A stretch of DNA of 64,000 nt from the NCBI RefSeq assembly GCF_001612885.1, contig NZ_BDBH01000004.1, forward strand, positions 496,001 through 560,000, given 5' to 3'. A program made the translations under genes and the position numbers. This DNA is from Nocardia harenae NBRC 108248 (GTDB lineage Bacteria; Actinomycetota; Actinomycetes; Mycobacteriales; Mycobacteriaceae). How positions within the stretch are numbered: position 1 is the stretch's first letter; each line of letters begins with the position of its first letter. The notes under the pieces were generated by a model. That model was not told where the DNA came from. It did not search any database and saw nothing but the letters and a program-made list of their open reading frames with translations. Positions 199 to 39,754 of this stretch are shown here, one piece after another.

Positions 199-1629
199 CT
201 ACGCCACCGATGCCGCCGCGCTCGCGGTGGCTGCCACCTGCTGCCCGGCGATCCGCCCGAAGGTCAGCGAGCGCAGCACCGAGGTGCCCGCCGGGTAGGT
301 GCCGTGGAAGGTGCCGACGATCTCGCCTGCGGCGTAGAGCCCCTCGATCCGCTCGCCCGCCTCGTCCAGTACCCGGGCCGCGCCGTCGGCCCTGATGCCG
401 CCGAAGGTGAAGCAGATCTGCGGCACGATCGGCCAGGCCTCGAACGGCCCCTGCGCGAGCGGGTAGGCCCAGTTCGACTTCGGCGGCTCCAGCCCGACCG
501 TGCTCTTGCCGTCGAGCCTGCTCAGGTCGATCGGCGTGGTGTCGGTGGCGGCGTTGAACGCCGCGACCGTGCGGGCCAGCCCCTCGGCATCGATCCCGAG
601 CAGCTCGGCGAGCTCGGCGAGCGTGTCGGCCTGGATACCGGGCTCGGTGGTGAAGTTGATCTGCGACAGGTGCGGCAGCGCCTCGCGTGCCGCCGCGTCG
701 GTGATGGCGTAGGCCACCCCGTTCGCCTTGCGGTGCACGGCGTTGGCGATGTAATCGAACTGCATGTCGTAGGTCGTGGACATCTCGTCGACGATGCGGT
801 TGCCGTCGGCGTCGACCACGATGCCGACCATCCAGGTGTTGACCAGCGCCTCGATATTGCCCGAGCGGGGATCGACCGGCTCCAGGTGGGCGCCGGAGTA
901 CTGCCCCGAGCGCGCCGCGCCGATGGCGGCGGCGATCTCGATACCGCCGCCGTTGTTGATCCGGGTGCCCGGCGAGACCGGCTCCAGCTTCTGGCCGCCG
1001 GGGATGTGCTTGCCGAGCAGCTCCTGGTTCCCCTCGAAGCCGCCGGAGGCGAGCACGACCGCGCCGGTGGAGAGCAGGTGCTCCGCGCCCGCGGCGTCGC
1101 GCACCCGGACGCCGGTGATCGGGCCGCCGGGGGTGCGTTCCAGCCCGACCGCCTCGACCTCGTAGAAGAAGGTGGCCCCGCGCTCGCGGGCCAGCTCGGT
1201 GAAGACGTCGACGAACCGGCGCCCGCCGCCCTCGATGCTGTAGCCGTACTTGACCCGGGTGCCGGGCAGCCCGACCGGCGCCTTGGCGAGCGGGACACCG
1301 CGCTGGCGGATCCAGGTGAGGGTGTCGACCGCGTTCTCGTAGAAGGCCTCGATGTAGGCCTCGGTCACGGCGTCGCCGCCGGAGGTCTCGCGGACGATCT
1401 CGCCCCAGTCCGAATCCAGCTGGGTATCGGCGTCGAGCCGGAATCCGGCGGTGGTCCAGGCCGAGGAGCCGCCCCGGTGCTCGTAGTCGGCCCGGTCGAG
1501 GACCGCGACGCGCGGCGCCGTGCCCCGGTAGGTCTCCAGGAAGGACACGGCCGCGCTCAACCCTGCGGCGCCGTGGCCGACGATGACGACGTCCCACTGG
1601 CCGTCGAAACTCACTGTCTCTGTGGTCAT
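199..1629 (-). CDS. FAD-dependent oxidoreductase, fumarate reductase / tricarballylate dehydrogenase (TcuA) type
   Basis: This 476-aa flavoprotein should oxidise or reduce a C-C bond next to a carbonyl or carboxylate. The N-terminal dinucleotide motif GHGAAG is at residues 18-23. The segment HRGGSSAWTTAGFRL follows it, VVLASGGFEGN marks the middle, and the FAD-closing GLYAAGEIVGTFHGTYPAG lies near the C-terminus, as in the fumarate reductase/3-ketosteroid dehydrogenase superfamily. I chose the ATG at 1629 over an in-frame start 72 bases upstream because the protein then begins at the Rossmann strand and the predicted transcription start falls just upstream. It diverges from a TetR gene, and its promoter carries an operator shared with the operons at 33.5 kb, so its substrate probably belongs to that pathway. 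The exact substrate cannot be read from sequence; a KstD-like role is possible. Confidence 0.85.
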   Translation of the reverse strand: MTTETVSFDGQWDVVIVGHGAAGLSAAVSFLETYRGTAPRVAVLDRADYEHRGGSSAWTTAGFRLDADTQLDSDWGEIVRETSGGDAVTEAYIEAFYENAVDTLTWIRQRGVPLAKAPVGLPGTRVKYGYSIEGGGRRFVDVFTELARERGATFFYEVEAVGLERTPGGPITGVRVRDAAGAEHLLSTGAVVLASGGFEGNQELLGKHIPGGQKLEPVSPGTRINNGGGIEIAAAIGAARSGQYSGAHLEPVDPRSGNIEALVNTWMVGIVVDADGNRIVDEMSTTYDMQFDYIANAVHRKANGVAYAITDAAAREALPHLSQINFTTEPGIQADTLAELAELLGIDAEGLARTVAAFNAATDTTPIDLSRLDGKSTVGLEPPKSNWAYPLAQGPFEAWPIVPQICFTFGGIRADGAARVLDEAGERIEGLYAAGEIVGTFHGTYPAGTSVLRSLTFGRIAGQQVAATASAAASVA

Positions 1630-11397: not shown

Positions 11398-11449
11398 GGA
11401 CGCCGGATATCCGGGCTCGCGCCCGTTCCACCGAATCGAGGAGGACACC

Positions 11450-14119: not shown

Positions 14120-14123
14120 GGTG

Positions 14124-15326: not shown

Positions 15327-15376
15327 CCTCGTTCTCGAGCCGCTGACGGAGCGCCGGGCGTATCCGGTGCGAATCC

Positions 15377-15410: not shown

Positions 15411-15433
15411 AAAATCAGGAGAGGAGGTGGGTG

Positions 15434-16440: not shown

Positions 16441-16460
16441 CAACCAAGGAGGTGTGCCCG

Positions 16461-17609: not shown

Positions 17610-17620
17610 GAGGAGCTCCG

Positions 17621-18844: not shown

Positions 18845-18846
18845 CC

Positions 18847-20364: not shown

Positions 20365-20397
20365 CGACGCATCGAAGAATCGAAGGTGAGTAGGGAC

Positions 20398-23314: not shown

Positions 23315-23345
23315 CCGACACGAATCGCGAAGAGGGACCGAGACA

Positions 23346-26135: not shown

Positions 26136-26153
26136 CGGTCTCCTCGAATATTT

Positions 26154-26167
26154 ACTTACCGTTAAGT
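26154..26167. promoter_or_regulatory. Motif B operator between divergent genes
   Basis: ACTTA-CCGT-TAAGT lies between the acyl-CoA dehydrogenase (minus) and the carboxylase alpha gene (plus). The flanks also match the other two sites (TTT before, CGAAT after, in one orientation). A -10-like TACCGT (26157-26162) sits in it for the plus strand, but its -35 (ATCGGT) is weak, which would suit a regulated or activated promoter. Confidence 0.75.
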
Positions 26168-26222
26168 CGAATGGTAGCATCGGTGGCAATTCAGCGGCCA
26201 CCGTGGCGGATAGGGGTTCTTG

Positions 26223-27998
26223 GTGTTCGAATCAGTGCTGATCGCCAATCGAGGCGAGATCGCGTGCCGGCTGATCCGGGCGTGCCGGGAACTCGGGGTG
26301 CGCACGGTGGCCGTCTACTCCGAGGCCGACCGGGATGCTCCGCACGTCCGCCTCGCCGACGAGGCGCACCTGCTCGGCCCCGCGGTCGCGAGCGAGAGTT
26401 ACCTCGATGTCGCGCGGATTCTCCGGGTGGCGCGGGAGGCGGGCGCCGAGGCGATCCACCCCGGCTACGGATTCCTCTCGGAGAACGCCGAATTCGCCCG
26501 TGCCGTGGCAGACGCCGGGCTGGCGTTCGTCGGGCCCCCGGCCGCGGCCATCGAGTCGATGGGGGACAAGCTGTCCGCCCGCGAGGTCGCGGGCAAGGCG
26601 GGCGTCCCCGTCGTTCCCGGCACCACCAGCCCGGTCACCGACGCCGCGGAGGCCATCGCCTTCGGCGCCGAGCACGGGTATCCGGTGGCGGTGAAGGCCA
26701 TGTTCGGCGGGGGCGGCCGCGGCATGAAGATCGTCACCGATGCCGCCGCGATGGCGGAGGCCCTGGAGAGCGCGCAGCGTGAGGCGGCGGCGTCGTTCGG
26801 GCGCGGCGAGTGCTACCTCGAGCGCTATCTGGAGCGGCCCCGCCACATCGAGGTGCAGATCCTGGCCGATACCGACGGCACCGTCATCCACCTGGGCGAC
26901 CGGGACTGCTCGCTGCAACGCCGTCATCAGAAGCTCATCGAGGAGGCACCCGCGCCGGGCCTGGCCCCGGCGGTGCGCGCCGCCATCGCGCGGGCCGCGG
27001 TGGAGGTGTCGCGGGCCATGGGCTACGTCAACGCGGGCACCTGCGAATTCCTGCTCGACGCCGACGGCGAGACGTTCTACTTCCTGGAGATGAACACCCG
27101 GCTGCAGGTCGAGCACCCGGTGACCGAACTGATCACCGGCGTCGACCTGGTGCACGCTCAGCTGCGGATCGCCGCGGGCGCGGGAATGGGGCTGACCCAG
27201 GACGACATCCGCCCCCGCGGCCACGCCATCGAGGCGCGGATCAACGCCGAGGACCCGCACCGGGGTTTCGTCCCGACCCCGGGGACCATCGTCGATCTCG
27301 CCCCGCCGCTGGGGCCCGGCGTCCGCTTCGACGTCGCCGCACGGGCCGGGTACGAGGTGCCGCCGTACTACGACTCGCTGATCGGCAAGCTGGTGGTGTG
27401 GGCGGCGGACCGCGACACCGCCATCGCCCGCCTGCGGCTCGCCCTCGACGAACTCGTCATCACCGGCATCCCGACCACGACGCCGTTTCACCGGCTCGCC
27501 GTGCGCCACCCGCAGTTCGCCGCGGTCGAGCACTCCACCGTCTCCGTCGAGCGGGAATGGGAGCTGAGCGGGCTGCCCGCGCACGACACCGGCGATCGAG
27601 AAAGTGAGCAGTCCATGGTTTCCAGCAGCCCGCAGCGGCGGTCCGTCCGCGACGTCGAACTGACGATCGGCGGCCGCGCCACCTACGTGACGGTGTACGG
27701 CGCCGCGGCGGCGCCGCCCGAGCCCGCGGCGCAGACCCGGCGGCAGCGGGAGCGGGCCGACCGGGCCGCCGATCCGGTGCACGCCGGCCCCGAACTCACC
27801 GCCCCGATGCAGGGCACGGTGGTCAAGGTGGCGGTCGCCGACCGCGATCCGGTGACCGCGGGCGACCTGATCTGCATCCTGGAGGCGATGAAGATGGAGA
27901 ACCACATCGTCGCCCATCGGGACGGGGTGGTCACCGTGCACCGGCACCCCGGCGATGCGGTGGAGAAGGACACGGTGCTCGCGGTCATCCAGGACTGA
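26223..27998 (+). CDS. Biotin-dependent acyl-CoA carboxylase alpha subunit (biotin carboxylase + biotin carrier)
   Basis: A 591-aa protein. Residues 1-450 are biotin carboxylase: VLIANRGEIACRLIRACREL at the N-terminus, the HPGYGFLSENAEFA region, the ATP-grasp loop MFGGGGRGMKI, and EMNTRLQVEHPVTE. After a variable linker rich in Arg and Ala, the biotin-carrier domain ends the protein, with the biotinyl Lys at about 557 in LEAMKMENH. It carboxylates biotin with ATP and bicarbonate. GTG at 26223 is used. No beta subunit is adjacent; the one at 6710 shares the motif B operator. Confidence 0.93.
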   Translation: MFESVLIANRGEIACRLIRACRELGVRTVAVYSEADRDAPHVRLADEAHLLGPAVASESYLDVARILRVAREAGAEAIHPGYGFLSENAEFARAVADAGLAFVGPPAAAIESMGDKLSAREVAGKAGVPVVPGTTSPVTDAAEAIAFGAEHGYPVAVKAMFGGGGRGMKIVTDAAAMAEALESAQREAAASFGRGECYLERYLERPRHIEVQILADTDGTVIHLGDRDCSLQRRHQKLIEEAPAPGLAPAVRAAIARAAVEVSRAMGYVNAGTCEFLLDADGETFYFLEMNTRLQVEHPVTELITGVDLVHAQLRIAAGAGMGLTQDDIRPRGHAIEARINAEDPHRGFVPTPGTIVDLAPPLGPGVRFDVAARAGYEVPPYYDSLIGKLVVWAADRDTAIARLRLALDELVITGIPTTTPFHRLAVRHPQFAAVEHSTVSVEREWELSGLPAHDTGDRESEQSMVSSSPQRRSVRDVELTIGGRATYVTVYGAAAAPPEPAAQTRRQRERADRAADPVHAGPELTAPMQGTVVKVAVADRDPVTAGDLICILEAMKMENHIVAHRDGVVTVHRHPGDAVEKDTVLAVIQD

Positions 27999-28050: not shown

Positions 28051-29262
28051 TCACACCGGCGATCTGCTCAGCACGGCGCCGGAGCCGATGTTCATCAGCC
28101 CGCTGACCACGACGACATTGTCCGCCTTCGCGATCTGGCGCGGCCCGGCGCGCCCCTGGACCTGCAGGGTGGCCTCGACCCAGTGCCCCATGCCGTGCAG
28201 CCTGCCCTCGCTCAGGTTGCCGCCGTGGGTGTTGATCGGGAACTCGCCCTCGATGTCGATCCGGCCGCCCTGGATGAACTCGTACGCCTCGCCCTCGCCG
28301 CAGAAGCCGAGTCCCTCCAGCCAGAAGTAGACGTCGGGCGCCCAGCCGTCGTAGAGCATGGCGGCGTCGATGTCGGCGGGGCGCAACCCCGATGTGCTCC
28401 ACAGCCCCCGGCCGATCGTCTCCGCGGTGTGGGTCATCTGTTCGAACATGCGCGGGCCGATCCCGCTCACGAGTCCGCTGATCGAGCGCGGCTCCAGCCC
28501 CTTCTTGATGCCGGACTGCCCGAGCCCGGTGATGTAGGCGGGCGGGTTCGGCAGCTCCCCGGCGAGGTCTGCTCTGGTCATGACGATGGCGGCGACGCCG
28601 TCGACCGGGATGTCGCAGTCGAACAGGCACATCGGATCGGCGATCATCCGCGCGTTCATGTACTCCTCGACCGTCAGCGGGGTGTCGCGGAAGAACGCGT
28701 TGGGGTTGAGATTGGCGCCCCTGCGCTGGGCGACCGCGAGCGTCGCCAGGTGCTCGCGTTTCGCGCCGTAGCGCTTCATGTAGCGCATGTAGGCGGGGGC
28801 GAACTCGGCGATCGCGCTCGATTTGCCGTACGGCAGGGTGTAGGCCAGATTCCCCGGCGCCTCGACGTCGCTCTCGATCGGCTGGTAGCTGCCGCCCGCC
28901 ACGAACGACATGGCCCGCCAGACCACGGCGTAGTCGCAGCGGTTGTGCGCGAGCGCGTGCGCGGCCTGCTCGATCGCCGTGCTCACATTGCCGTTCTGGG
29001 TCTCGGCCCACCACCGGATATTGCGGAAGCCGAGGTTGTGCACGAGCCAGCCGACGCTGACGAACTGGGTGCCGTCGGTGGGGCCCTCCGGGAACTGCGG
29101 GAAGGTCGCGGCGCCGTCGACGTCGTCGAGCTCGATGCCCGCGTCCCGGACGGCGGCGAGCACGGCGTCCTTGGCGAGCAGGCCGAGCGGCCGGGTGAGC
29201 CTGCGGCCCACCTCGGAGTAGCCGACGCCGACGATCGCGACCGGGTTGTCAGGGCTGAACAT
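28051..29262 (-). CDS. Thiolase-fold protein without catalytic Cys, Ltp2 aldolase-like
   Basis: A 403-aa thiolase-superfamily protein. Where thiolases have the nucleophile, this one reads WWAETQNGNVSTAIEQAAHAL, with no Cys. Its C-terminus has INTHGGNLSEGRLHGMGHWVEA instead of the GHPxGATG motif. The same replacements mark the lipid-transfer-protein-like aldolases such as Ltp2, which cleave a tertiary 3-hydroxyacyl-CoA in sterol side-chain degradation together with a DUF35 partner. The gene overlaps the DUF35 gene (29249) by 14 bases, so the two are probably one complex. It is the last gene of its operon. A retro-aldol step is my inference. Confidence 0.85.
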   Translation of the reverse strand: MFSPDNPVAIVGVGYSEVGRRLTRPLGLLAKDAVLAAVRDAGIELDDVDGAATFPQFPEGPTDGTQFVSVGWLVHNLGFRNIRWWAETQNGNVSTAIEQAAHALAHNRCDYAVVWRAMSFVAGGSYQPIESDVEAPGNLAYTLPYGKSSAIAEFAPAYMRYMKRYGAKREHLATLAVAQRRGANLNPNAFFRDTPLTVEEYMNARMIADPMCLFDCDIPVDGVAAIVMTRADLAGELPNPPAYITGLGQSGIKKGLEPRSISGLVSGIGPRMFEQMTHTAETIGRGLWSTSGLRPADIDAAMLYDGWAPDVYFWLEGLGFCGEGEAYEFIQGGRIDIEGEFPINTHGGNLSEGRLHGMGHWVEATLQVQGRAGPRQIAKADNVVVVSGLMNIGSGAVLSRSPV

Positions 29263-29683
29263 CGTCGTCTCCTCGCAAGCGGAACTGCAGCAGCACCTGG
29301 TCGCCGCGCGGCTCGAAGTCCGCGACGACCGGGAGGTCGATGTCGAGGGCGTCGAAGTCGTACTCGCCGACCAGGTTGGTCACCAGCACCAGCGAGGGCT
29401 GCTCCTCGAGGGCGACGGAGACGAGCACGTACGGCACGTCGCCGGCGAACGCGGCCACCCAGGTCTGGTGCACCGCGGTGAAGGCGTAGATCGTGCCCCG
29501 GCCGGAGACCTGGGTCCAGGCGAACTCCTCGCCGAGGCACTCCGGGCAGAGCATCCGCCGCCGCTGGCTGTACCAGCCGCAGGAGGTGCAGCGCGAGAGC
29601 ACCACCCGGTGCTCGCGCAGGGCGTCCCAGTAGGGCCGGTCGGCCTCGGTGGGGATCGGGATCGGTTTTTCCAGGCTTGTCAT
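29249..29683 (-). CDS. Zn-ribbon/OB-fold (DUF35) acyl-CoA-binding partner
   Basis: A 144-aa protein. The N-terminal rubredoxin-like zinc ribbon has Cys32, Cys35, Cys46 and Cys49 (SRCTSCGWY and MLCPECLG). An OB-fold follows, with GRGTIYAFTAVHQ and PYVLVSVALEE. DUF35 proteins partner thiolase-fold enzymes and help bind the CoA substrate. It overlaps the Ltp2-like gene, so the pair is translationally linked. It is a distant paralogue of the DUF35 protein at 32161. Confidence 0.9.
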   Translation of the reverse strand: MTSLEKPIPIPTEADRPYWDALREHRVVLSRCTSCGWYSQRRRMLCPECLGEEFAWTQVSGRGTIYAFTAVHQTWVAAFAGDVPYVLVSVALEEQPSLVLVTNLVGEYDFDALDIDLPVVADFEPRGDQVLLQFRLRGDDDVQP

Positions 29684-29711
29684 GTACTGCCTACTCGATG
29701 TCGTCGGCCGG

Positions 29712-30464
29712 TCAGGACGGCCGCGTGTACAGGCTCTTGCCGCCGCAGACGTAGAGCAGCTGCCCGGTGGTCGAGCCGCCCGCGGGCCCCGCGAAGTAGG
29801 ACACCGCCCAGGCGACGTCCTCGGGCTTGCCGATGACGCCGGTGGGCTGGGCGGCGAGCAGCCGCTCCATGACCTCGGGGGTCTCGTTGCGGATCAGGGG
29901 GGTGTCGATCAGCCCGGGTGCGATCGCGTTGACGGTGATCCCGTAGCGGGCCAGCTCGATGGCGGTGGAGCGGGTGAAGGAGACCACCCCGCCCTTGGAC
30001 GCCGCGTACGCGGACTGCCCGAACCAGCCGAGCCAGGCCCTGGAGGCGATATTGACGATGCGGCCGGAGCGCCTGCCGATCATGCCGCGGGCCGCGGCGC
30101 GCGAGCAGTTCATCACCCCGGTCAGGTTGACCGCGATGGTGCGGTTCCAGTCCTCGTCGGTCAGCTTGCGGAGCGCCCCGTTGATGCTGATGCCCGCGTT
30201 GTTGACCAGGATGTCGAGCGGGCCGTAGCGCTCCTCGGCGGCCGCCACCATCGCGTCGGCGTCGGTGGCCGAGGTGATGTCGGCGGCGGCCGCGGCGGCG
30301 GTGTGCCCCGCCGCGGTGAGCGCGGCCGCGGCGCGCTCGGCGCCGTCGGCGGAGCGGTCCGCGATGGTGACGGCGGCGCCCTGCGCGGCGAGTTCGGTGG
30401 CGATGGCGAGCCCGATGCCCTGGGCCGCGCCGGTGACGACGGCGGTCTTTCCCCGGAGATTCAC
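29712..30464 (-). CDS. SDR-family dehydrogenase, probable active subunit of an SDR pair
   Basis: A 250-aa classical SDR with all key residues: TGAAQGIG (11-18), NNAG near 90, Ser in NIASRAWLG, and YAASK near 151. The C-terminus GQLLYVCGGKSLYTRPS is unusual and resembles that of the neighbouring degenerate SDR (GQVLFCCGGSSLLSSLSV). It therefore probably forms a hetero-oligomer in which only this subunit binds NAD. By analogy to BbsD it would oxidise a 3-hydroxyacyl-CoA. It lies 13 bases after the degenerate SDR gene. Confidence 0.9.
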   Translation of the reverse strand: MNLRGKTAVVTGAAQGIGLAIATELAAQGAAVTIADRSADGAERAAAALTAAGHTAAAAAADITSATDADAMVAAAEERYGPLDILVNNAGISINGALRKLTDEDWNRTIAVNLTGVMNCSRAAARGMIGRRSGRIVNIASRAWLGWFGQSAYAASKGGVVSFTRSTAIELARYGITVNAIAPGLIDTPLIRNETPEVMERLLAAQPTGVIGKPEDVAWAVSYFAGPAGGSTTGQLLYVCGGKSLYTRPS

Positions 30465-30477
30465 GATGCTGGTCCTC

Positions 30478-31017
30478 TCACACGCTCAGGCTGGACAGCA
30501 GGCTGGATCCGCCGCAGCAGAACAGGACCTGCCCGGTGATGTAGCTGCTGCGGGGGTCGGCGAGGAAGGCCGCCGTCGCCGCGACGTCCTCGGTGGCGAC
30601 GGGTTCGGGCAGCAGGCCGCGCACGTCGTCGGCCGCGGGGTCGCCGGGCGCGATCAGGTTCACCCGTACCTGCCGTGGCGCCAGCTCGAGGGCGAGGCTG
30701 CGCACCGCCGAGGCGAGCGCCCCGGCGATCGCGGCCGCCTCCGCCCGCTGCGCGCTGCCGAGCTGGTCGCGGCTGCCGATCACGACGATCGCGCCACCGC
30801 CGCCTGCGGCGTCCCGGAAGCGCCAGCGCCGCGCGCCGTCGAGCAACCGCCCCACGACCCCGCTGTCGGCCCGGCCGCCGGCGAGCCCGGCGTCCACGAC
30901 GACGGCGTCGACCGCGCTGTCGCGGTCCGCGGTGACCTCCCACCCCGACTCGAGCAGCTGTGCCGACACGATCTCGGTGAGCGGTGTCGGTTCGGATTCG
31001 ATGCGTACGACGGGCAT
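30478..31017 (-). CDS. Degenerate SDR, probable inactive partner subunit
   Basis: A 179-aa SDR-like protein that lacks the catalytic machinery. The N-terminus (MPVVRIESEPTPLTEIVSAQ) has no TGxxxGxG, and the protein is about 70 residues shorter than a normal SDR. At the active site the usual Tyr and Lys are replaced: GSAQRAEAAAIAG places Gln90 and Ala94 there. The downstream strand RVNLIAPGDP and the C-terminus GQVLFCCGGSSL remain. Frame and codon use are intact, so it is a maintained gene rather than debris. Its position between a thiolase and an active SDR matches BbsC, an inactive subunit of the BbsCD dehydrogenase. Confidence 0.85.
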   Translation of the reverse strand: MPVVRIESEPTPLTEIVSAQLLESGWEVTADRDSAVDAVVVDAGLAGGRADSGVVGRLLDGARRWRFRDAAGGGGAIVVIGSRDQLGSAQRAEAAAIAGALASAVRSLALELAPRQVRVNLIAPGDPAADDVRGLLPEPVATEDVAATAAFLADPRSSYITGQVLFCCGGSSLLSSLSV

Positions 31018-31018
31018 G

Positions 31019-32164
31019 TCAGGCCTCCGCGGTGAGGATGTGGACGGAGCAGGCGCCGTTGTCGACGCCGAAGATGCCGCCGCCGGTGGTGTGGGTCAGC
31101 GCGACCTGCGCACCGGGCACCTGGAGGTCGCCGGCGGCGCCGATGAGCTGCCAGTAGGACTCGGCGAGCTGGCTGACGCCGGTGGCGCCGACCGGGTGGC
31201 CGCGGGAGAGCAGGCCGCCGCTCGGGCTGACCGCCACCCGGCCGTCGACGGCGAACTCGCCGTTCGCCACCGCCCGGTACGCCTTGCCGCGCTCGGCCAG
31301 CCCGAGCGCCTCGGTGTGCAGGAACTCGGCGATGGCGAAGGCGTCGTGCAGCTCGACCAGGTCGAGATCGGCCGGGGTGATCCCGGACATGGCGTAGGCC
31401 GCCTCCGCGGCGCGAGCGGTGATGTCGGGCCAGGTCATGTCGCGGAAGGAGGTGTGGAACTGTCCCGATCGGACCACGCTGGCGGCGACCCTGGCCGTCG
31501 GCCTGCCCAGTTCCCTGGCGAAGTCCTCGCTGCACAGCAGCACCGCCGCCGCGCCGTCGCTGTTCGGGCAGCAGTGGAACAGGTGCAGCGGATCGGCGAT
31601 CGGGCGCGACTGCTCGACCTGCTCCGCGGTGACCGCGGCGCGCAGGTGCGCGCGCGAGTTGCGGGCGCCGTTGCCGCGGTTCTTGACCGCCACATTGGTC
31701 AGGTCGGCGACGGTGGCGCCGGTTTCGGAGAGGTAGCGCTGGGCGCGCATGGCGTAGGTCGCGGGCATCACGACGCCCTGGTCGATCTCGATATCGGCGG
31801 TGGTGAGCGGCAGCGTCCCGCCGCCGAAGGCGGAGAGGTTCTCCACGCCGACCACGAGCACGCAGTCGTAGACGCCTGCGGCGACGCCCTGCCACGCCAG
31901 GTGCACGGCGGATCCGCCGCTGGCGCAGGCGTTCTCGACGGTGAACACCGGCTGGCCGGAGACCCCGACGCGCTGCAGGATGCGCTGCGCGACGAGCGAG
32001 CCGCCGTAGACCGAGCCGACGAATCCGGCCTGCACCGCCTCCGGCGCGACGCCGGTGTCGGCGAGCAGCGCCGCCGCCGCCGAGATGCCGAGGTCGGCTG
32101 CGGACATGTCCCGGTGCTTGCCGAAGGGGTGCACGGCGGCGCCGGCGATATAGACGTTCTTCAC
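31019..32164 (-). CDS. Thiolase-superfamily protein with catalytic Cys, BbsB-like
   Basis: A 381-aa thiolase-fold protein. The nucleophile is kept at Cys80 in VENACASGG, ELHDAFAIAE is near residue 270, and the His is in GGLLSRGHPVGATG. It therefore should perform true thiolysis, unlike the paralogue at 28051. The GTG start overlaps the upstream DUF35 stop as GTGA. A thiolase with a small zinc-finger/OB partner is the BbsAB arrangement, which cleaves benzoylsuccinyl-CoA. The substrate here is unknown. Confidence 0.9.
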   Translation of the reverse strand: MKNVYIAGAAVHPFGKHRDMSAADLGISAAAALLADTGVAPEAVQAGFVGSVYGGSLVAQRILQRVGVSGQPVFTVENACASGGSAVHLAWQGVAAGVYDCVLVVGVENLSAFGGGTLPLTTADIEIDQGVVMPATYAMRAQRYLSETGATVADLTNVAVKNRGNGARNSRAHLRAAVTAEQVEQSRPIADPLHLFHCCPNSDGAAAVLLCSEDFARELGRPTARVAASVVRSGQFHTSFRDMTWPDITARAAEAAYAMSGITPADLDLVELHDAFAIAEFLHTEALGLAERGKAYRAVANGEFAVDGRVAVSPSGGLLSRGHPVGATGVSQLAESYWQLIGAAGDLQVPGAQVALTHTTGGGIFGVDNGACSVHILTAEA

Positions 32165-32607
32165 TGCTGGCCACCTTCGGTCGGGGCGTTGATGTCGTGG
32201 GGAAGCGGGCGGGCCACGTAGGAGAGGAGCGTGGTGCCGTTCCGGTCGCCGATCTCGCCGAGCTCGAGCCGCACGGTCGTGTCCGGGGTGAGCGCCGCGT
32301 CGGCGGCGGTGTGCGCGAGCAGCCGGACCCCGTCGATATCGACGTAGCTCAGCACATAGGGCGCGGGGAATCCCGGCGGGCCGACCCGGACGACGGTGGA
32401 GGCGTAGGCCACCCCGGTCGGACCGCTCTCGATGTCGGCGACGTCGGTTCCGGCGCAGTGCGAGCAGATCGACACCGGCGGGAACCAGCGGCTGTGGCAG
32501 GTGTGGCACTCGGTGATCCGCAGCCGCACGCCGCCGTCGTCGTGGGTGAAGTAGGCACCGGCCACGACTTCGGTGGCGGGAGTGGAAGATTCGGTCTCGG
32601 TGGACAT
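32161..32607 (-). CDS. Zn-ribbon/OB-fold (DUF35) protein, BbsA-like
   Basis: A 148-aa protein with zinc-ribbon cysteines 34, 37, 48 and 51 (TECHTCHSRW and SICSHCAG), then an OB-fold (GVAYASTVVRVG, PYVLSYVDIDG). I start it at ATG 32607, the base that also begins the complement of the hydratase stop, so the genes abut; an in-frame ATG 87 bases upstream lies inside the hydratase. It should be a subunit of the thiolase encoded next. Confidence 0.9.
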   Translation of the reverse strand: MSTETESSTPATEVVAGAYFTHDDGGVRLRITECHTCHSRWFPPVSICSHCAGTDVADIESGPTGVAYASTVVRVGPPGFPAPYVLSYVDIDGVRLLAHTAADAALTPDTTVRLELGEIGDRNGTTLLSYVARPLPHDINAPTEGGQQ

Positions 32608-33437
32608 CAGTGACCTCCGTAGGCAGGGTCGCGTCGTTCGGTGAAGGCCAGGCGCCCCTCGGCCCGGTCCGCGGTATCGCGCAGCAGCCCCCACATCGCC
32701 TGCTCCATCGCGATGGCGTGGCTGAGCGGGAGGTCGTAGCTGCGCTGGGCGAGGCTGCTGATCGCGCGGACCGAGAGCGGGCCGTTGGCCGCGATCCGGC
32801 GGGCCAGCCCGAGCGCCGCCTCCAGCAGGTCGTCCGGCTCGTACACGTCGCTGACCAGCCCGACGCGCAGCGCCTCGGCGGCGTCGATCCGGTCGCCGGT
32901 GAGCAGCATCTTCATCGCCACCGCGGGCGGGACGGCGCGCAGCAGGCGGGACAGCCCGCCGACCGCGGGCAGGCTCGCCCAGCGGGCCTCCGGCAGCGAG
33001 AAGGTCGCGTTGCTGGACGCGATCCGCAGATCGCAGTCGAGCGCGATCTCCAGCCCGCCGCCCGCGGCGTGGCCGTTGATCGCGGCGATCAGCGGTTTGC
33101 CGACGGCGATCTGGCTGAGCGTGATCGCCCGGACGTATCCGCCGTCGGCCACTCCCTGCTCCCAGGGGGCGAGCAGCGCCGCCGCGAAGGGCGCGCCCTC
33201 CGGGGGTGTGCGGCGCAGGTCGGAGCCGGCGCAGAACGCGCGCCGCCCCGCCCCCGTGAGGACGGCGACCGCGAGCGAGCTGTCGTCGCGGAACTCCTCG
33301 AGGGCGTGGCGCAGCAGCACCATCGAATCCGGGTCGAGGGCGTTGTGCACCTCCTCCCGATCGAGCCGGACGACCAGGATCGCGCCGTCTCGTTCCGTGG
33401 TGACGCCCGGGCGTGGTGACTCGCCGGTATCGGACAT
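32607..33437 (-). CDS. Enoyl-CoA hydratase/isomerase, first gene of the operon
   Basis: A 276-aa crotonase with FCAGSDLRRTP, INGHAAGGGLEIALDCD and FSLPEARWASLPAVGG; both glutamate positions are kept. ATG at 33437 follows AGGAG by seven bases; an in-frame ATG 114 bases upstream would overlap the promoter. It heads the minus-strand operon controlled by motif A and corresponds in role to BbsH. Confidence 0.92.
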   Translation of the reverse strand: MSDTGESPRPGVTTERDGAILVVRLDREEVHNALDPDSMVLLRHALEEFRDDSSLAVAVLTGAGRRAFCAGSDLRRTPPEGAPFAAALLAPWEQGVADGGYVRAITLSQIAVGKPLIAAINGHAAGGGLEIALDCDLRIASSNATFSLPEARWASLPAVGGLSRLLRAVPPAVAMKMLLTGDRIDAAEALRVGLVSDVYEPDDLLEAALGLARRIAANGPLSVRAISSLAQRSYDLPLSHAIAMEQAMWGLLRDTADRAEGRLAFTERRDPAYGGH

Positions 33438-33475
33438 CGGAATTCTCCTATCGGGTGCTCTCGGATGGTTCTGCG

Positions 33476-33505
33476 ACGTTAACCAACGAGTTGGTTGAAA
33501 GTCAA
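33476..33505 (-). promoter_or_regulatory. Promoter of the minus-strand operon with motif A operator in the spacer
   Basis: -35 TTGACT (complement of 33500-33505) and -10 TAACGT (complement of 33476-33481) are 18 bp apart. The spacer and -10 edge hold the best motif A site, AACCAACGAGTTGGTT (33481-33496), with 7-bp perfect arms. Confidence 0.8.
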
Positions 33506-33534
33506 CGAGCCTGGTAGAGCGTGAATGCGCCGCC

Positions 33535-33574
33535 AACCAAACGGTTGACACTCAATTAACTAGTTGGTTAGTCT
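33535..33574 (+). promoter_or_regulatory. Promoter of the plus-strand CaiB operon with motif A operator in the spacer
   Basis: -35 TTGACA (33545-33550) and -10 TAGTCT (33569-33574) are 18 bp apart. The spacer holds AATTAACTAGTTGGTT (33554-33569), 13 of 16 identical to the site at 33481. A weaker repeat, AACC-AAAC-GGTT (33535-33546), overlaps the -35. Both divergent promoters thus carry the operator in the same place. Transcription would start near 33581. Confidence 0.8.
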
Positions 33575-33677
33575 ATGCGGCACCCGCTCGACGAGGAGAA
33601 CCGGCCGGTGCTCCAGGCCCCGGTTCGTCGCCCGATCGCGGCCCTCAGCCCTGTGCAGCGAGCACGAAAGGAACGAC

Positions 33678-33743
33678 ATGCCGCACGACCATTCCGCTCC
33701 ACCGACCGCGGCGGCGCCGCCCGTCCCGCGAGCCGCGCCGTGA
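33678..33743 (+). CDS. Possible 21-aa Pro/Ala-rich leader peptide
   Basis: An ATG at 33678 follows the ribosome site AAAGGAAC and opens 21 codons beginning MPHDHSAPPTAAAPPVPRAA. Its TGA (33741-33743) overlaps the GTG of the CaiB gene as GTGA. The CaiB start has no ribosome site of its own, so its translation may be coupled to this frame. The alternative, that the CaiB frame starts at the ATG at 33575, is excluded if transcription starts near 33581. Confidence 0.4.
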   Translation: MPHDHSAPPTAAAPPVPRAAP

Positions 33744-34753
33744 GCGGGCTGCGGCCGCTGGCCGGGCTGCGCGTGGCCGAGCTGGACCATTCGCCTGCGC
33801 TCGCCGTGTGCGGCATGTACCTCGCCGGGCTCGGCGCGGAGCTCACCGATTTCGCCGCCGCGGAGCGCGGGGCCGACTCCGCCCTCGCCGATTACCTCGG
33901 TGCGGACAAGCGCGCCGCGGCCGAGCCGTTCGACCCGCGCGAGGCGGGCGCCTACGACATCCTGCTGTGCACCCGCCCGCCTGCCGAGCTGCCCGCGCAC
34001 GTGATCGCCGTCGTGGTGTCGCCCTTCGGCCGCACCGGGCCGCGGGCCGGGTGGCAGGGCGGCGACTTCCTGGCCCAGGCCGCCTCCGGGCTGATGAGCC
34101 TGATCGGCGACGCGGACGACGCGCCGCTCGCCATGGGCGGACACCAGATCGAATACACCGCGGGAGTCGCCGCGTTCACCGCGACCATGGTGGCGCTGCG
34201 CGCCCGCGACCGCGACGGGCTCGGACAGATCGTGGAGACCTCGCTGTTCGAGACCGCCGCCTACATCGAGTGGAAGGGGCGGATGTACCAGCAGGCGGGG
34301 AACGAACTGCGGCGCGGAGACCGCTCCGGCCCGATCGTCACGCGGTGCGCGGACGGGTACTTCGGCTTCTACTACCGGGAGATCGATTGGCCTGCGATCC
34401 TGCGGGTCTTCGGCTCCGCGCGGCTGTCCGATCCCCGCTTCGCCACCCACGCCGACCGGAGCGCCAACCAGGACGAGCTGATCGCGGTGCTCGACGAGCT
34501 CTCCCGCGACCTCCGCCGCGACGAGCTGTACCGCAGGCTGCAGGCCGAGCGGGTGCCGGTCGGGCCGGTCTTCGACGCCGCCGACCTGCTCGGCTCGCCG
34601 CAGTACGCGGAGCGCGCCTTCTTCACGCCGCTCGGCGGCGACGGGGTCCGGCCGGAGTTGCCGGTGACCTTCAACGGCGCGCGCAGCGCCGGGCCGCCCG
34701 CCCTTCCCCCGCACCGACCGAACGACTCCGTCCGAGGGGAGACCTCCGAATGA
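33740..34753 (+). CDS. CaiB/BaiF-like CoA-transferase subunit, shortened and atypical
   Basis: A 337-aa family III CoA-transferase-like protein. The N-terminal LAGLRVAELDHSPALAVCGM is kept, but the usual DLGADVIKVE strand is AGLGAELTDF, so CoA contacts may differ. At the catalytic position, DGLGQIVETSLFETAAY has Glu171 where the family has Asp. It is 60-90 residues shorter than most members. GTG at 33740 is used. ATGA overlap couples it to the next CaiB gene; adjacent unequal CaiB genes suggest a heteromer like BbsEF. Confidence 0.82.
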   Translation: MSGLRPLAGLRVAELDHSPALAVCGMYLAGLGAELTDFAAAERGADSALADYLGADKRAAAEPFDPREAGAYDILLCTRPPAELPAHVIAVVVSPFGRTGPRAGWQGGDFLAQAASGLMSLIGDADDAPLAMGGHQIEYTAGVAAFTATMVALRARDRDGLGQIVETSLFETAAYIEWKGRMYQQAGNELRRGDRSGPIVTRCADGYFGFYYREIDWPAILRVFGSARLSDPRFATHADRSANQDELIAVLDELSRDLRRDELYRRLQAERVPVGPVFDAADLLGSPQYAERAFFTPLGGDGVRPELPVTFNGARSAGPPALPPHRPNDSVRGETSE

Positions 34754-36042
34754 CGCTTCCGCTGGCCGGCGTCCGCGTCCTCGACCTGGGGATCATCACC
34801 GCGGGCGCCGCCTCGTCGCAGGTGCTCGCCGACTTCGGCGCCGATGTGATCAAGGTCGAGTCCACCACCTATACCGACCCGTTCCGCAACTGGACCCAGG
34901 TGACCGGCGGCGGATCGAGGGACCTCAACGCCAGCCCGGCCTTCCACGCGGTGAACCGGGGCAAGCGCGGCATCGCCGTCGACCTGAAGACCGGCGCGGG
35001 CCGCGAGCTCTTCCTCGCGCTGGTCGAGGAGGCCGACATCGTGGTGGAGAACTTCCGCCGCGGCGTCCTCGAACGGCTCGGTATCGGGTTCGACCGGCTG
35101 CGCGCGGTCAACTCGCGGATCGTGCTGCTCTCGCTGAGCAGCCAGGGTTCGACCGGCCCGGAGCGCGACTACATCTCCTTCGGCTCGACGCTGGAGGGCA
35201 TCGGCGGGCTGATGTCGCTCACCGGCTATGCCGAGGACCGGCCGGTCTGGACCGGCAACAACATCAACTACCCGGACCAGCTGGTCTCGGTGATCGCCCC
35301 CGGGCTGGCGCTGGCCGGGCTCCGGCTGCGGGACTCGACCGGGATCGCGGTGCACGTCGACCATGCCCAGCGCGAAGCGGTGACCAGCGCGATGGGGGAG
35401 GAGATCGTGCGCGCGAGCCGGGGACTGCCCCGCCCGCCGCGCGGATCGAACTCCAACCCCGCCTGCGCGCCCTGGGGTGTCTACCCGGCGGCGGGCGACG
35501 ACCGGTGGATCGCCGTCGCCGTGGCCACGGACCGGCAGTGGCGCGCGCTGTGCGCGGTGCTCGGCCTGCCGCACCTGGCCGACGACGCCCGGTACGCGAC
35601 CACGGCGGATCGGATCGCCGCGCGCGCCGAGCTCGATCGGTTGCTCGCCGCTGCCTGCCGGAACCGGGACAAGGTCGCCCTCGCCGAGGAGCTGCAGGCG
35701 GCGGGGGTGCCCGCGGCGCCGGTGCTCACCCCCGGTGAGGTGCTCGCCGACGCGCAGCTGGCGGCGCTGGGGTTCCCGCAGCGCACCCCGGGCGGCACCC
35801 TGCTGCACCGCGGCTTCGCGGCCCGGCTCTCCCGGACCCCCGCCGCCGTGCGCCGCCGGGCCCCACGGCTCGGCGAACACACCGCCGAGGTGCTGCGGGA
35901 GGTGCTCGTCCTGGACGAGGATCGAATCGAGCACCTGCGCGCGGCGGACGCGATCTTCTGCGATCCCGGCGCCGCGGCCGTGCCCGCCGAAGCGTCCCCC
36001 GATACCGAAGACCTTCCCGCACGAGAGGCCGCTCAACGATGA
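34750..36042 (+). CDS. CaiB/BaiF family CoA-transferase with Glu at the nucleophile position
   Basis: A 430-aa protein with full N-terminal motifs: LAGVRVLDLGIITAGAASSQ and DFGADVIKVES, then VVENFRRGVLERLG. Alignment of STGIAVHVDHAQREAVTS with the family pattern TGxGQxVDVSLLDA puts Glu209 at the catalytic Asp. The C-terminal domain has APWGVYPAAGDDRWIAVAV and PRLGEHTAEVLREV. It starts by ATGA overlap with the previous CaiB gene and ends by ATGA overlap with the aldehyde dehydrogenase gene. Probably the larger subunit of a heteromeric CoA-transferase. Confidence 0.88.
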   Translation: MTLPLAGVRVLDLGIITAGAASSQVLADFGADVIKVESTTYTDPFRNWTQVTGGGSRDLNASPAFHAVNRGKRGIAVDLKTGAGRELFLALVEEADIVVENFRRGVLERLGIGFDRLRAVNSRIVLLSLSSQGSTGPERDYISFGSTLEGIGGLMSLTGYAEDRPVWTGNNINYPDQLVSVIAPGLALAGLRLRDSTGIAVHVDHAQREAVTSAMGEEIVRASRGLPRPPRGSNSNPACAPWGVYPAAGDDRWIAVAVATDRQWRALCAVLGLPHLADDARYATTADRIAARAELDRLLAAACRNRDKVALAEELQAAGVPAAPVLTPGEVLADAQLAALGFPQRTPGGTLLHRGFAARLSRTPAAVRRRAPRLGEHTAEVLREVLVLDEDRIEHLRAADAIFCDPGAAAVPAEASPDTEDLPAREAAQR

Positions 36043-37541
36043 CCGCCACCGTCTCGAATCCCGTCGGCACCGTCGGCAACAGGTTCCCGGAGTTCCGGCC
36101 CGAGGAGCAGTACCGGATGCTCATCGGCGACGACTGGGTGGCCGCGGCCGACGGCGCGACCTTCCGCTGCTTCGACCCCTTCGACGACCGGGAGTGGGGC
36201 CACGTGCCGCTGGCCGGGGAGTACGACGTCGCGCGCGCCGTCGCCGCGGCCCGCGCCGCCTTCGAGGGCTGGGCGACGACGCCTGCGCTGCAGCGCGCGC
36301 TGATCCTGCAGCGGTGGGCGCAGCTGATCCGGGACAACGTGGAGGCGCTCGCGCGGTTGCAGGTGCACGAGAACGGCAAGACGATCACCGAGATGCGCGG
36401 CGCGAGCGAGTTCCTCGCGATGACCGCCGACTACTTCGCGCAACTCGCGCTCGGGCCGGTCGGGCTCACGATCGAGCCCGAGGTGCCCGGGCACGAGGCG
36501 TGGACGCTGCGGCAGCCGATCGGGGTGGTCGCCGCGATCGCCCCGTGGAACAACCCGCTCGGCCTGCTGTCCTGGAAACTGTTCCCCGCGCTGGCCGCGG
36601 GCAACACCGTCGTCGTGAAGCCCTCCGAGGTCACTCCGGCCTCGACGCTGCTGCTCGCCCGGCTCGGCCGGGAGGCGGGGCTGCCGCCGGGGACGGTCAA
36701 CGTCGTCACCGGTGCCGGGGCCACCGGTGCCGCGCTCGTCGAATCGCCCGGGATCGACAAGATCGCCTTCACCGGGTCGAGCGCGACCGGCGCGCGGATC
36801 GCCCGCAGCGCCGCGGCGCGGTTCGTGCGCACCACGCTCGAGCTCGGCGGCAAGGGCGCGCAGCTGGTCTTCGCCGACGCCGATCTCGACGCGGCGACCT
36901 CGTCGCTGGTCAACGGGATCGTCGCCGGAACGGGGCAGGCGTGCAACGCCGGTTCCCGGGTGCTGGTGCACGACGACGTCCACGACGAGGTGGTCGAGGC
37001 GCTGTGCCGGAAGCTCGGCGAGGTCAGGATCGGCGACCCGCTCGATCCCGAGTCGGTGATCGGTCCGCTGGCCTCGCGTCCGCAGTACGAGAAGGTGACC
37101 GGGTATCTCGACATCGCCGCGGCGGAGGGTTCCGAGCTGCTCTTCGGTGGACGGCGCGGGAGCGAGATCGACGGCATCGAGTCGGGGCGGTTCGTGGAGC
37201 CGACCCTGTACGCGACGCCGGAACCGTCGTCGCGCATCCGCCGGGAGGAGATCTTCGGCCCGGTCGGCGGGGTGATCCGGTTCCGCGACGACGACGAGGC
37301 GATGCGCATCGCCAACGAGACGCGGTTCGGCCTCGTCGCCGGGCTGTGGACCACCGATGTGTCCCGCGCGCACCGGCTCGCGCGGCGCCTGGAGTCCGGC
37401 GTGGTCTGGATCAACACCTGGCGCGCGTTCAGCAACAACGTGCCCTTCGGCGGGGTGAAGAGCAGCGGCGTCGGCCGCGAGATCGGCCCGGACGCGCTGC
37501 GCGAGTACACCGAGACCAAGTCGATCTGGCTCGGGCTGTGA
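36039..37541 (+). CDS. Aldehyde dehydrogenase (NAD(P)-dependent)
   Basis: A 500-aa aldehyde dehydrogenase. It has IAPWNNPLGLL near residue 165, the Glu in LELGGKGAQLVF near 268, and the catalytic Cys302 in GTGQACNAGSR. The C-terminus reads PFGGVKSSGVGREIG. It oxidises an aldehyde to an acid, or to an acyl-CoA if it uses CoA. Coupled on both sides by overlaps, it must be part of the CaiB operon; it has no counterpart in the bbs operon and may supply the acid that receives CoA. Confidence 0.93.
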   Translation: MTATVSNPVGTVGNRFPEFRPEEQYRMLIGDDWVAAADGATFRCFDPFDDREWGHVPLAGEYDVARAVAAARAAFEGWATTPALQRALILQRWAQLIRDNVEALARLQVHENGKTITEMRGASEFLAMTADYFAQLALGPVGLTIEPEVPGHEAWTLRQPIGVVAAIAPWNNPLGLLSWKLFPALAAGNTVVVKPSEVTPASTLLLARLGREAGLPPGTVNVVTGAGATGAALVESPGIDKIAFTGSSATGARIARSAAARFVRTTLELGGKGAQLVFADADLDAATSSLVNGIVAGTGQACNAGSRVLVHDDVHDEVVEALCRKLGEVRIGDPLDPESVIGPLASRPQYEKVTGYLDIAAAEGSELLFGGRRGSEIDGIESGRFVEPTLYATPEPSSRIRREEIFGPVGGVIRFRDDDEAMRIANETRFGLVAGLWTTDVSRAHRLARRLESGVVWINTWRAFSNNVPFGGVKSSGVGREIGPDALREYTETKSIWLGL

Positions 37542-39040
37542 CCGCGCGGGCCGAAGGCGCGGCGGCGCTCGCCGAGGCGGGCGGGCCCGCGCTGACGCGC
37601 TGGTTCACCGATCGGCTCTGGTCGGAGATCGGCGGGGGCGCACCCCTGCCGGGTGCCGTCACCGTCACCGGGGACGGCGACCTCGGCACCCCGTTCCCGC
37701 TGCTCGACCTCGCGGCGGCGAGCTTCGCCGTCACCGGTGCGGCCGTCGCGGAGCTGCTCCGCGCGGCGGGGCACGACGCGCCCGCGGTGGCGGTGGATCG
37801 GCTCTCCGCTGGCACCTGGTTCGACGTTCCGCTGGCGCCGACCCGCTACGCCGACGCCCCGGAGCCGCACGGGGTGCACTCGGGGTGGATGGCGGAGTTC
37901 CGCACCGCGGACGCGCGCTGGATTCGCGTGCAGGCCTCCTTCCCGACGCTGCGCCGCAGGCTCTGCGCGGCGCTCGGCGTGCGCGAGGATCCGGACGAGA
38001 TCGGCCGCGCGCTGGGCGAGCTGGCGGCCGAGGACGCCGAGCGGCGGATCACCGCGGCGGGAGCCGCGGCGGCGGTCGGCCGCTCCCTGGCGGAGTGGCG
38101 GCACAGCCCGCAGGGCAGCGCGGTCGCGTGGGAGCCCTTCGCCGCCGGGCGGACCACGCTGACCCGCACCGCGCGGTGGACGCCGCATCCGGAGCGGCCC
38201 CTGCTCGGCGTCCGGGTACTCGACATGACCCGGATCGTGGCCGGTCCGATGGCCACCCGGATGCTGGCGGCGCTCGGGGCCGAGGTACTGCGGATCGACC
38301 CGCCCGACGGCGACGAGGTCGCCATGATGGGCCCCACCGACATCTGCCTCGGCAAGCGGTGGGCACTGCTCGATGCCAGAACCCCGGAGGGGCGGCAGCG
38401 CTACCGCGAACTGCTCGCCTCGGCCGATGTGCTCGTGCACGGCTACCGGCCTGGCGCGGTGGACGGCCTCGGCTTCGACGAGCAGGCGCGCGCCGAGATC
38501 AGCCCCGGGCTGGTCGAGGTGACGCTGGACGCCTTCGGCTGGACCGGCCCGCTGCGCGGGCGGCGCGGCTTCGACACCATCGTGCAGTTCGCCTCCGGGC
38601 TGGCCGACGAATTCGCCCGGTGGGGGAGCGCCGATCCCGGACGGCTGCCGCTGAATTCGCTCGGGCACCGGGTGGACGGATCCCGGCCCCGGATTCTGCC
38701 GATCGAGATCCTCGACTTCGCGACGGGCTACGCGATGGCGGCGGCGGCGATCGCCGGGCTGCGCAGGCAACTGACGGAAGGAACGGGATCGATCACGAAA
38801 CTCTCGCTCGCGCGCACCGCGGGGCTGCTCACCGAGCCGCGATTCACCCCGGCGGCCGGGTTCGTGGAGCTGCCCTTCGCGGCGGCCGAGCGGCCGCGGG
38901 TCCGGGAGATGAACCGGCGGCCGTCGCGCCGTCTCGAATTCCCGGTGCGGCTCGAGGGAGTCGAGCTGTTCTGGGACCGGCCCGCCGAGAATCCGGGTTC
39001 GTCGGCCGCGCGCTGGGCCACCACCCGCCCGGACCGCTGA
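37538..39040 (+). CDS. Unusual CaiB/BaiF-like protein with rearranged halves
   Basis: A 500-aa protein. Residues 1-220 resemble the C-terminal part of a CaiB protein (GWMAEFRTADARWIRVQASF near 115, then CAALGVREDPDEIG). Residues 225-440 resemble the N-terminal part (LLGVRVLDMTRIVAGPMATR, ALGAEVLRIDPP, VLVHGYRPGAVDGLGF). The order is thus the reverse of the usual one, as in a circular permutation or a fused half-duplication. At the nucleophile position, GSITKLSLARTAGLL has Arg426 instead of Asp, so it is probably not a transferase by itself. GTG at 37538 overlaps the aldehyde dehydrogenase stop. Confidence 0.75.
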   Translation: MTARAEGAAALAEAGGPALTRWFTDRLWSEIGGGAPLPGAVTVTGDGDLGTPFPLLDLAAASFAVTGAAVAELLRAAGHDAPAVAVDRLSAGTWFDVPLAPTRYADAPEPHGVHSGWMAEFRTADARWIRVQASFPTLRRRLCAALGVREDPDEIGRALGELAAEDAERRITAAGAAAAVGRSLAEWRHSPQGSAVAWEPFAAGRTTLTRTARWTPHPERPLLGVRVLDMTRIVAGPMATRMLAALGAEVLRIDPPDGDEVAMMGPTDICLGKRWALLDARTPEGRQRYRELLASADVLVHGYRPGAVDGLGFDEQARAEISPGLVEVTLDAFGWTGPLRGRRGFDTIVQFASGLADEFARWGSADPGRLPLNSLGHRVDGSRPRILPIEILDFATGYAMAAAAIAGLRRQLTEGTGSITKLSLARTAGLLTEPRFTPAAGFVELPFAAAERPRVREMNRRPSRRLEFPVRLEGVELFWDRPAENPGSSAARWATTRPDR

Positions 39041-39115
39041 AGCCGGGCACGCACAATGGTTCCGAGACGTTCGGCCGCCGCGGCAGGCACCCCGCCGCCG
39101 GGTAACCTCGGCGCG

Positions 39116-39754
39116 GTGAGCGCTCCGAAGTCACCGGCGAACGACGATCAGGCCAGTCGCAAGGATCGAATCCTGCGCGCCGCGGCCGAGGAGTTCGCCG
39201 ACAAGGGCGAGGCCGCGGTGCGCATCGATGAGATCGCGCGCCGCAGCGGAGTCAACAAGCAACTCATCTACTACTACTTCGGCTCCAAGGCGGAGCTCTA
39301 CGCCGCGGTCCTGCAGATGATGGTGGAGAACAACGTCGCCATGTGGGAGGAGACGGCGAAGTCGAACCTGATGGCGGGCGTCCGGCGGCTGCTGGCCGCC
39401 AAGGACGACGACGACATCGCGTGGTCCCGCCTGCTCGCCTGGGAGGGCATCGAGTACGGGGGGTCGCGCGGTGACGAGAAGATCGTGCTGCAGAGCCGCC
39501 GCACCAAGGCCTACTCCGGGGTGACCGAGCTGTTCCGGCGCGCGCAGTCGGCGGGCGAGCTGGCCCCGCAGCTCGATGCCGAGATGCTGACCGTCGTCTG
39601 GTCGCTGCTGAACATGAGCCAGACCCTGCTGCCGCAGGTGGTCGAGATGGTCACCGGGCTGGATCCGGCCGGCGCGGAGTACGCCGAGCGGGTGCGCGCC
39701 TTCTGCCTGACGCTCGTCGAGCACCTCGGCCCTGGTGGTACCGCACCCGAGTGA
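39116..39754 (+). CDS. TetR/AcrR-family regulator, candidate motif A repressor
   Basis: A 212-aa TetR protein; HTH at about residues 16-60 (RILRAAAEEFADKGEAAVR, DEIARRSGVNKQLIYYYFG). It is the closest relative in the window of the TetR at 1805 (35 of 54 residues identical over the HTH). GTG at 39116 lacks a ribosome site; -10 TAACCT at 39103-39108 lies seven bases before it, so the mRNA is probably leaderless. It ends the CaiB operon and is the likely repressor of motif A at 33.5 kb. Confidence 0.88.
   Translation: MSAPKSPANDDQASRKDRILRAAAEEFADKGEAAVRIDEIARRSGVNKQLIYYYFGSKAELYAAVLQMMVENNVAMWEETAKSNLMAGVRRLLAAKDDDDIAWSRLLAWEGIEYGGSRGDEKIVLQSRRTKAYSGVTELFRRAQSAGELAPQLDAEMLTVVWSLLNMSQTLLPQVVEMVTGLDPAGAEYAERVRAFCLTLVEHLGPGGTAPE

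Follow-up and report, generated by a model that had tools for sequence, protein, structure and literature searches.

A Bbs-like beta-oxidation gene module in Nocardia harenae and its probable role in the aerobic use of a substituted-succinate-type acid

Why should an actinomycete whose group suggests an aerobic life carry genes that resemble, in content and order, those for the breakdown of benzylsuccinate? Anaerobic toluene decay begins with the formation of benzylsuccinate by an oxygen-sensitive enzyme, and the Bbs enzymes are taken as a hallmark of hydrocarbon degradation without oxygen. In this study, we analysed a stretch of 64,000 nucleotides (contig C4, positions 496001-560000; hereafter the window, to which coordinates without a locus name refer) of the GC-rich, 6.14-Mb genome of Nocardia harenae. 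An initial annotation of the same stretch had described a hydratase, a DUF35 protein, a thiolase with its Cys, a degenerate and an intact short-chain dehydrogenase/reductase (SDR) on one strand and two CaiB genes on the divergent strand, had likened the order DUF35-thiolase-inactive SDR-active SDR to that of the bbs operon, and had called the module homologous or convergent. The operon of anaerobic toluene degraders is bbsABCDEF(J)GH (PMC5874301). We propose, with fair but far from full confidence, that the genes form an aerobic beta-oxidation module, homologous to Bbs, that acts on a dicarboxylic acid of the substituted-succinate type, and that the host probably feeds, under air, on some succinate-like acid other than benzylsuccinate.

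All module genes were present in the window and were backed by codon-position GC signal and Pfam matches, which bears out the gene content first described, including an Ltp2-like/DUF35 pair, an aldehyde dehydrogenase (ALDH) and a third CaiB-like gene that go beyond bbs. The transcription order on the minus strand is hydratase (H), DUF35 (A), thiolase (B), short SDR (C), SDR (D), second DUF35 protein (DUF35b) and Ltp2-like protein, and on the plus strand CaiB1, CaiB2, ALDH, CaiB3 and a TetR regulator (Table 1). The H/A and A/B genes overlap by a few bases, and the B/C and C/D gaps are 1 bp and 13 bp.

Genome searches, plasmids and GTDB contigs supplied relatives of the module. A survey of other Actinobacteria, which the initial annotation had suggested, found that the gene set recurs: the H-A-B-C-D order is present in at least nine other actinobacterial loci, a Rhodococcus opacus plasmid among them, and A-B-C-D is present also in true bbs operons, so that the arrangement is not due to chance. 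The same scan recovered canonical bbs operons in Aromatoleum (L122/L124), Desulforhabdus (L111) and two metagenome-assembled genomes (MAGs), with the order DUF35-thiolase-SDR-SDR-CaiB-CaiB-acyl-CoA dehydrogenase-enoyl-CoA hydratase. Genome G093 has a thiolase 89% identical to that of the window and every gene of the set, but in another order; in G056 the Ltp2 pair is missing from the set and H comes after D. A second module type (R. opacus pLP414, Arthrobacter, Kribbella, Prauserella, G050, G316 and a MAG) reads IclR, CaiB-E, CaiB-F, H, A, B, C, D, the E-F pair being adjacent in Arthrobacter, Kribbella and a MAG, and a MatC-like dicarboxylate permease is found in seven second-type loci. A contig of a Bacillota MAG (L058:139-11661) carries A-B-C-D, a regulator-like open reading frame (ORF) and then E-F-H, and its C subunit retains the SDR motifs; on this contig the F gene is split into two frames, and thioesterase, MmgE/PrpD-like and electron-transfer-flavoprotein-like ORFs were named by eye. 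Thiolases at least 70% identical occur in 4 of 299 genomes of the host's taxonomic order, the host's own included. This patchy occurrence is suggestive of horizontal transfer, and R. opacus carries its copy on a plasmid.

When compared with all PDB sequences, the thiolase matched BbsB (7pxp) best, at 279 bits with the runner-up at 215, and in the alignment it keeps the nucleophilic Cys (NACAS), HDAF and GHP, as BbsB does. In a tree with seven other DUF35-linked thiolases from the same scan, the canonical bbs, window-type and proteobacterial thiolases and a fourth group formed one clade (support 99/94); branching within it was not settled, and a clade of the bbs and window groups was not rejected (approximately unbiased test, p-AU 0.27). 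The BbsB-type thiolase has its DUF35 partner encoded next to it, with the zinc-ribbon Cys intact in the alignment (4/4) and with PDB matches to ChsH2 (35 bits) slightly ahead of BbsA (26 bits). The hydratase, which is of the BbsH type, falls in one clade with BbsH and the proteobacterial and actinobacterial module hydratases.

The intact SDR found BbsD as its top PDB match (226 bits, runner-up 201), groups with BbsD in the tree (87/85) and carries SRAWLG, YxxxK and vCGG motifs. SRAWLG, in which an Arg lies beside the catalytic Ser, was present in 54 of 77 SDRs encoded directly downstream of such thiolases versus 3 of 81 others, one of the three being a gene of the G093 module that is split between two loci; this Arg may bind the second carboxylate of the substrate. 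As in bbs, the BbsD-like SDR adjoins an inactive, BbsC-like one, here shortened: in the alignment TGxxxGxG and the catalytic Tyr and Lys are all missing, SRD.LG and a CCGG...SSLSV tail are retained, and a profile search of the PDB placed BbsD first (91 bits) and BbsC second (82 bits). C subunits of 179-220 residues occur in other actinobacterial loci too. The C-terminal SxSV tail was dropped as a mark of the C subunit, since proteobacterial single SDRs end similarly and the tail may be ancestral; an AlphaFold2 model of the truncated SDR, built from a four-row alignment, was discarded (predicted local distance difference test score, pLDDT, 41); and its profile, run across 396 genomes of the phylum, matched mostly ordinary SDRs and was hence unusable for prevalence. 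Separately, two distant genomes of the same phylum (L149:9623-12327 and L150:3748-10288) have clusters of a hydratase, an SRAWLG-type SDR and CaiB, the SDR being about 50% identical.

Both halves of a two-subunit, BbsEF-like CoA-transferase were likewise placed by two CaiB trees, CaiB1 in the BbsE clade (97/93 and 87) and CaiB2 in the BbsF clade (100/98 and 98), and the two clades together were set apart from other CaiBs with support 95. Against the BbsEF structure, CaiB1 matched chain A at 65 bits and chain B at 26, and CaiB2 chain B at 193 bits and chain A at 109, the overall top PDB match of each being another CaiB. An Asp is the catalytic residue of the CaiB family. It is present in BbsE of canonical bbs operons, where BbsF has Ser or Ala. 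The F-like subunit is the one that bears it in the window, G093 and G056, whose E-like subunits have Glu or Arg (Glu in CaiB1). Compared with bbs, the catalytic Asp has changed from the E-like subunit to the F-like one, a new feature.

Within the divergent promoter lie a perfect palindrome, AACCAACGAGTTGGTT, at 33481-33496 and a second site at 33557-33571, where the minus strand reads CTAACCAACTAGTTA. At up to two mismatches this 15-mer occurs in exactly two places in the 6.1-Mb genome, both exact, the other copy (1694-1708) lying about 65 bp upstream of a gene for a flavin adenine dinucleotide (FAD) protein at 199-1629. At the same tolerance a control pattern, the reversed 15-mer, matched once on the forward and twice on the reverse strand, and the weight therefore rests on the exactness of both sites; the expectation for the window was 0.02 at up to three mismatches. 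The TetR protein encoded at 39056-39754 is 40% identical to another at 1805-2419. The FAD protein is TcuA-like; in R. opacus and Prauserella its relatives adjoin the module, and in Bradyrhizobium the one-SDR form of the module. The substrate of TcuA is a substituted succinate, which it oxidises as the free acid, and the TcuA-like protein is therefore a candidate for the missing dehydrogenation, in which it could replace BbsG. The shared operator, the placement of the CaiB pair in the BbsE and BbsF clades and the lack of BbsG throughout the actinobacterial group of modules add to what the initial annotation had seen. Of its two alternatives homology is favoured, the thiolase, SDRs, hydratase and both CaiBs being Bbs homologues; neither unrelated families nor a non-conserved order emerged from the PDB comparison, trees and synteny. 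Its remark that benzylsuccinate synthase has left no trace also holds for the genome, which lacks the glycyl-radical domain PF01228 and with it that enzyme; 3 of 14 control genomes were positive.

A pathway may be drawn up after the Bbs reaction scheme (PMC10818641). First, the free acid would gain a double bond, for which the TcuA-like flavoprotein may be responsible, unless the acid is already an alkylidene or hydroxy compound; the BbsEF-like transferase would then activate the acid, presumably from succinyl-CoA; hydration by the BbsH-like enzyme would be followed by oxidation of the beta-hydroxyl group by the BbsD-like SDR, with the truncated BbsC-like partner as a scaffold; and thiolysis by the BbsAB-like thiolase/DUF35 pair would yield an acyl-CoA and succinyl-CoA. 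ALDH, CaiB3 and the Ltp2-like/DUF35 aldolase pair may serve earlier or later steps. The H, CD and AB steps are backed by homology, gene order and residues; EF activation and a succinate-type substrate are deduced from orthology together with the permease and the TcuA link. A bolder version, which we regard as tentative and somewhat doubtful, has the double bond made on the free diacid by the TcuA-like flavoprotein and not on the CoA ester by BbsG; it would constitute a short aerobic pathway for natural substituted succinates (plant benzylmalate- or benzyltartrate-type acids, alkylidene succinates), from whose lineage the toluene bbs operon may derive. Nothing relevant was found in the literature on aerobic bbs homologues or on bacterial degradation of eucomic or piscidic acid.

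Several results weigh against the proposed reading. The curated cut-offs for BbsB, BbsA and TcuA were missed: the top NCBIfam model of the thiolase is BbsB at 311 bits (equivalog cut-off 750), the DUF35 protein scores 42.8 bits with the BbsA model (cut-off 250), and the TcuA-like protein 304 bits with TcuA, its top model (cut-off 369). The thiolase and the DUF35 protein are thus relatives of BbsAB and not BbsAB itself, and the BbsA-like assignment, weak by sequence, rests on position beside the thiolase. A common origin of the truncated SDR and BbsC is neither shown nor rejected, single origin (p-AU 0.19) and local duplication of C (p-AU 0.18) both being compatible with the SDR trees. A BbsG-type acyl-CoA dehydrogenase is absent from the module, here and in sister actinobacterial modules, although no genome-wide BbsG search was made; the nearest acyl-CoA dehydrogenase (24987-26201) is about 29% identical to BbsG and belongs to a separate transcription unit. 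In G093 and G056, the closest full sets, a cytochrome P450, an SDR and a ferredoxin reductase that are absent from the window adjoin the module (L033:2130-5968, L036:3544-7608), and these P450 neighbours fit methyl-group oxidation of a lipid or terpenoid. The top matches of the P450 are a CYP125 ancestor, CYP126 and CYP124, and the window genome has no close relative of it (best match 34%).

It is from these neighbours that the main rival draws, namely beta-oxidation of an alpha-methyl-branched acid such as a terpenoid, a branched lipid or a steroid side chain, in which P450 and ALDH would form the acid, the CaiBs activate or isomerise it, the thiolase free propionyl-CoA and the Ltp2-like protein carry out a retro-aldol cleavage, the kinship with Bbs reflecting a common alpha-branched 3-oxoacyl-CoA chemistry and not a succinate substrate. 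The Ltp2-like/DUF35 pair, with a YDGW site and without the thiolase Cys, and parts of an acyl-CoA carboxylase in the window (26220-27998 and 6710-8296) would suit such a route, whereas the E and F subunits in the BbsE and BbsF clades, the SRAWLG Arg conserved with BbsD, the dicarboxylate permease of the sister modules and the TcuA-like gene under the same operator speak against it; we give this rival a real but clearly minor chance. Much less credit is due to the idea that the module runs in reverse and joins succinyl-CoA and an acyl-CoA into a substituted succinate. The five Bbs beta-oxidation enzymes are described as principally reversible and were run so in a synthetic E. coli pathway (PMC10818641), but TetR/IclR-type regulators, the permeases of the sister modules and the many degradation genes of the window fit catabolism, and we consider synthesis improbable. 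A chance or convergent assembly of generic SDR, thiolase, DUF35 and CaiB genes in bbs order is the least credible; all these families are large and the Bbs cut-offs were missed, yet the same order and subfamilies recur across many genomes and canonical bbs operons, and this, together with the clades and motifs, already contradicts it.

Table 1. Features of the Bbs-like module and of the flavoprotein gene that shares its operator
Feature	Coordinates	Strand	Basis
BbsH-like enoyl-CoA hydratase	32607..33437	-	Pfam ECH_1; hydratase tree; 47-50% identical to the BbsH proteins of canonical bbs operons
BbsA-like DUF35 (zinc ribbon/OB) subunit	32161..32607	-	PF01796; position
BbsB-like thiolase	31019..32164	-	PDB, NCBIfam, trees, Cys/HDAF/GHP
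BbsC-like truncated SDR, 179 aa, predicted catalytically dead	30478..31017	-	Profile versus PDB; lost motifs
BbsD-like SDR, predicted active	29712..30464	-	PDB, tree, SRAWLG/YxxxK/vCGG motifs
Second DUF35 protein (DUF35b), likely partner of Ltp2-like protein	29249..29683	-	Pfam zf-ChsH2 and OB_ChsH2_C
Ltp2-like thiolase-fold protein	28051..29262	-	PDB, alignment
CaiB1, BbsE-like CoA-transferase subunit	ORF 33575..34753, probable start ~33740	+	Trees, PDB
CaiB2, BbsF-like CoA-transferase subunit	34750..36042	+	Trees, PDB
Aldehyde dehydrogenase (ALDH)	36039..37541	+	Pfam Aldedh, 534 bits; kept in G093 and G056 modules
CaiB3, third CaiB-like protein	37538..39040	+	Pfam CoA_transf_3, half match; kept in G093 and G056
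TetR regulator, closes plus-strand run	39056..39754	+	PF00440
Divergent promoter with two putative operators	33479..33571	.	AACCAACGAGTTGGTT and CTAACCAACTAGTTA
TcuA-like (tricarballylate-dehydrogenase-like) FAD protein	199..1629	-	Best NCBIfam model TcuA

Among the flanking proteins, CaiB3 is apparently circularly permuted: within its first 210 residues lies a stretch that matches the domain which ordinary CaiBs carry at the C-terminus, the usual N-terminal domain follows from residue 224, and the protein has no catalytic Asp. Elsewhere in the window, a second beta-oxidation run (14121-24275, plus strand) encodes a CaiB, a luciferase-like monooxygenase, an acyl-CoA dehydrogenase, a thiolase, a CoA ligase, a hydroxyacyl-CoA dehydrogenase, a hydratase, an APH-like kinase and an Rv3169-like protein. 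At 9418-12544 a flavin monooxygenase of 659 aa, resembling flavin-containing and Baeyer-Villiger monooxygenases, is followed by an alpha/beta hydrolase, a pair which suggests ketone-to-ester cleavage. The biotin carboxylase/carrier protein at 26220-27998 and the carboxyltransferase 18 kb away at 6710-8296 possibly belong to one acyl-CoA carboxylase.

It has been proposed to monitor anaerobic hydrocarbon degradation with the bbs genes as a marker and degenerate primers placed in bbsAB (PMC5874301). Rhodococcus, Arthrobacter, Kribbella and Prauserella are among the aerobes that carry homologous modules, which weakens this use. These modules bear on the origin of the toluene operon and indicate an as yet uncharacterised route for the catabolism of substituted succinates. 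They also offer natural experiments on pseudoenzyme subunits, the C subunit being intact in the Bacillota MAG, inactive at full length in bbs and truncated in the window, with the swapped active subunit of the CoA-transferase as a further one.

Among known systems, the DUF35-thiolase-SDR-hydratase-CaiB clusters of Proteobacteria (Cupriavidus, Variovorax, Pseudomonas and Azospirillum) encode a thiolase, an SDR (SRAWLG, vCGG) and a hydratase mostly 45-53% identical to those of the window, but have one SDR and one CaiB, the latter from another CaiB clade. The tricarballylate dehydrogenase TcuA is approached, below its curated cut-off, by a protein whose gene shares an operator with the Bbs-like module. 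The steroid side-chain aldolases Ltp2/ChsH2 and Sal/Shy are homologues of the 28051-29262 and 29249-29683 products, the top PDB matches being Ltp2 (6ok1_A, 191 bits) for the former and 9myr_B and ChsH2 for the latter. The Ltp2-like protein is a probable retro-aldolase, which like them has no nucleophilic Cys and keeps the position of the Tyr base; unlike them it has YDGW and not YDHF, as in Ltp2, or YDCY. The meaning of the YDHF-type motif in Ltp2-type aldolases has been described (PMC12329534). From the bbs operon the window differs in that the module has no BbsG and no benzylsuccinate synthase, H precedes A, E-F is divergent, the BbsC-like protein is about 70 aa shorter and the catalytic Asp lies in the F-like subunit; ALDH, CaiB3 and the Ltp2-like/DUF35 pair are added, and the host is an actinomycete. 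With that operon it shares homologues of A, B, C, D, E, F and H, the contiguous A-B-C-D order, an inactive SDR beside an active one and a two-subunit CoA-transferase of the CaiB family.

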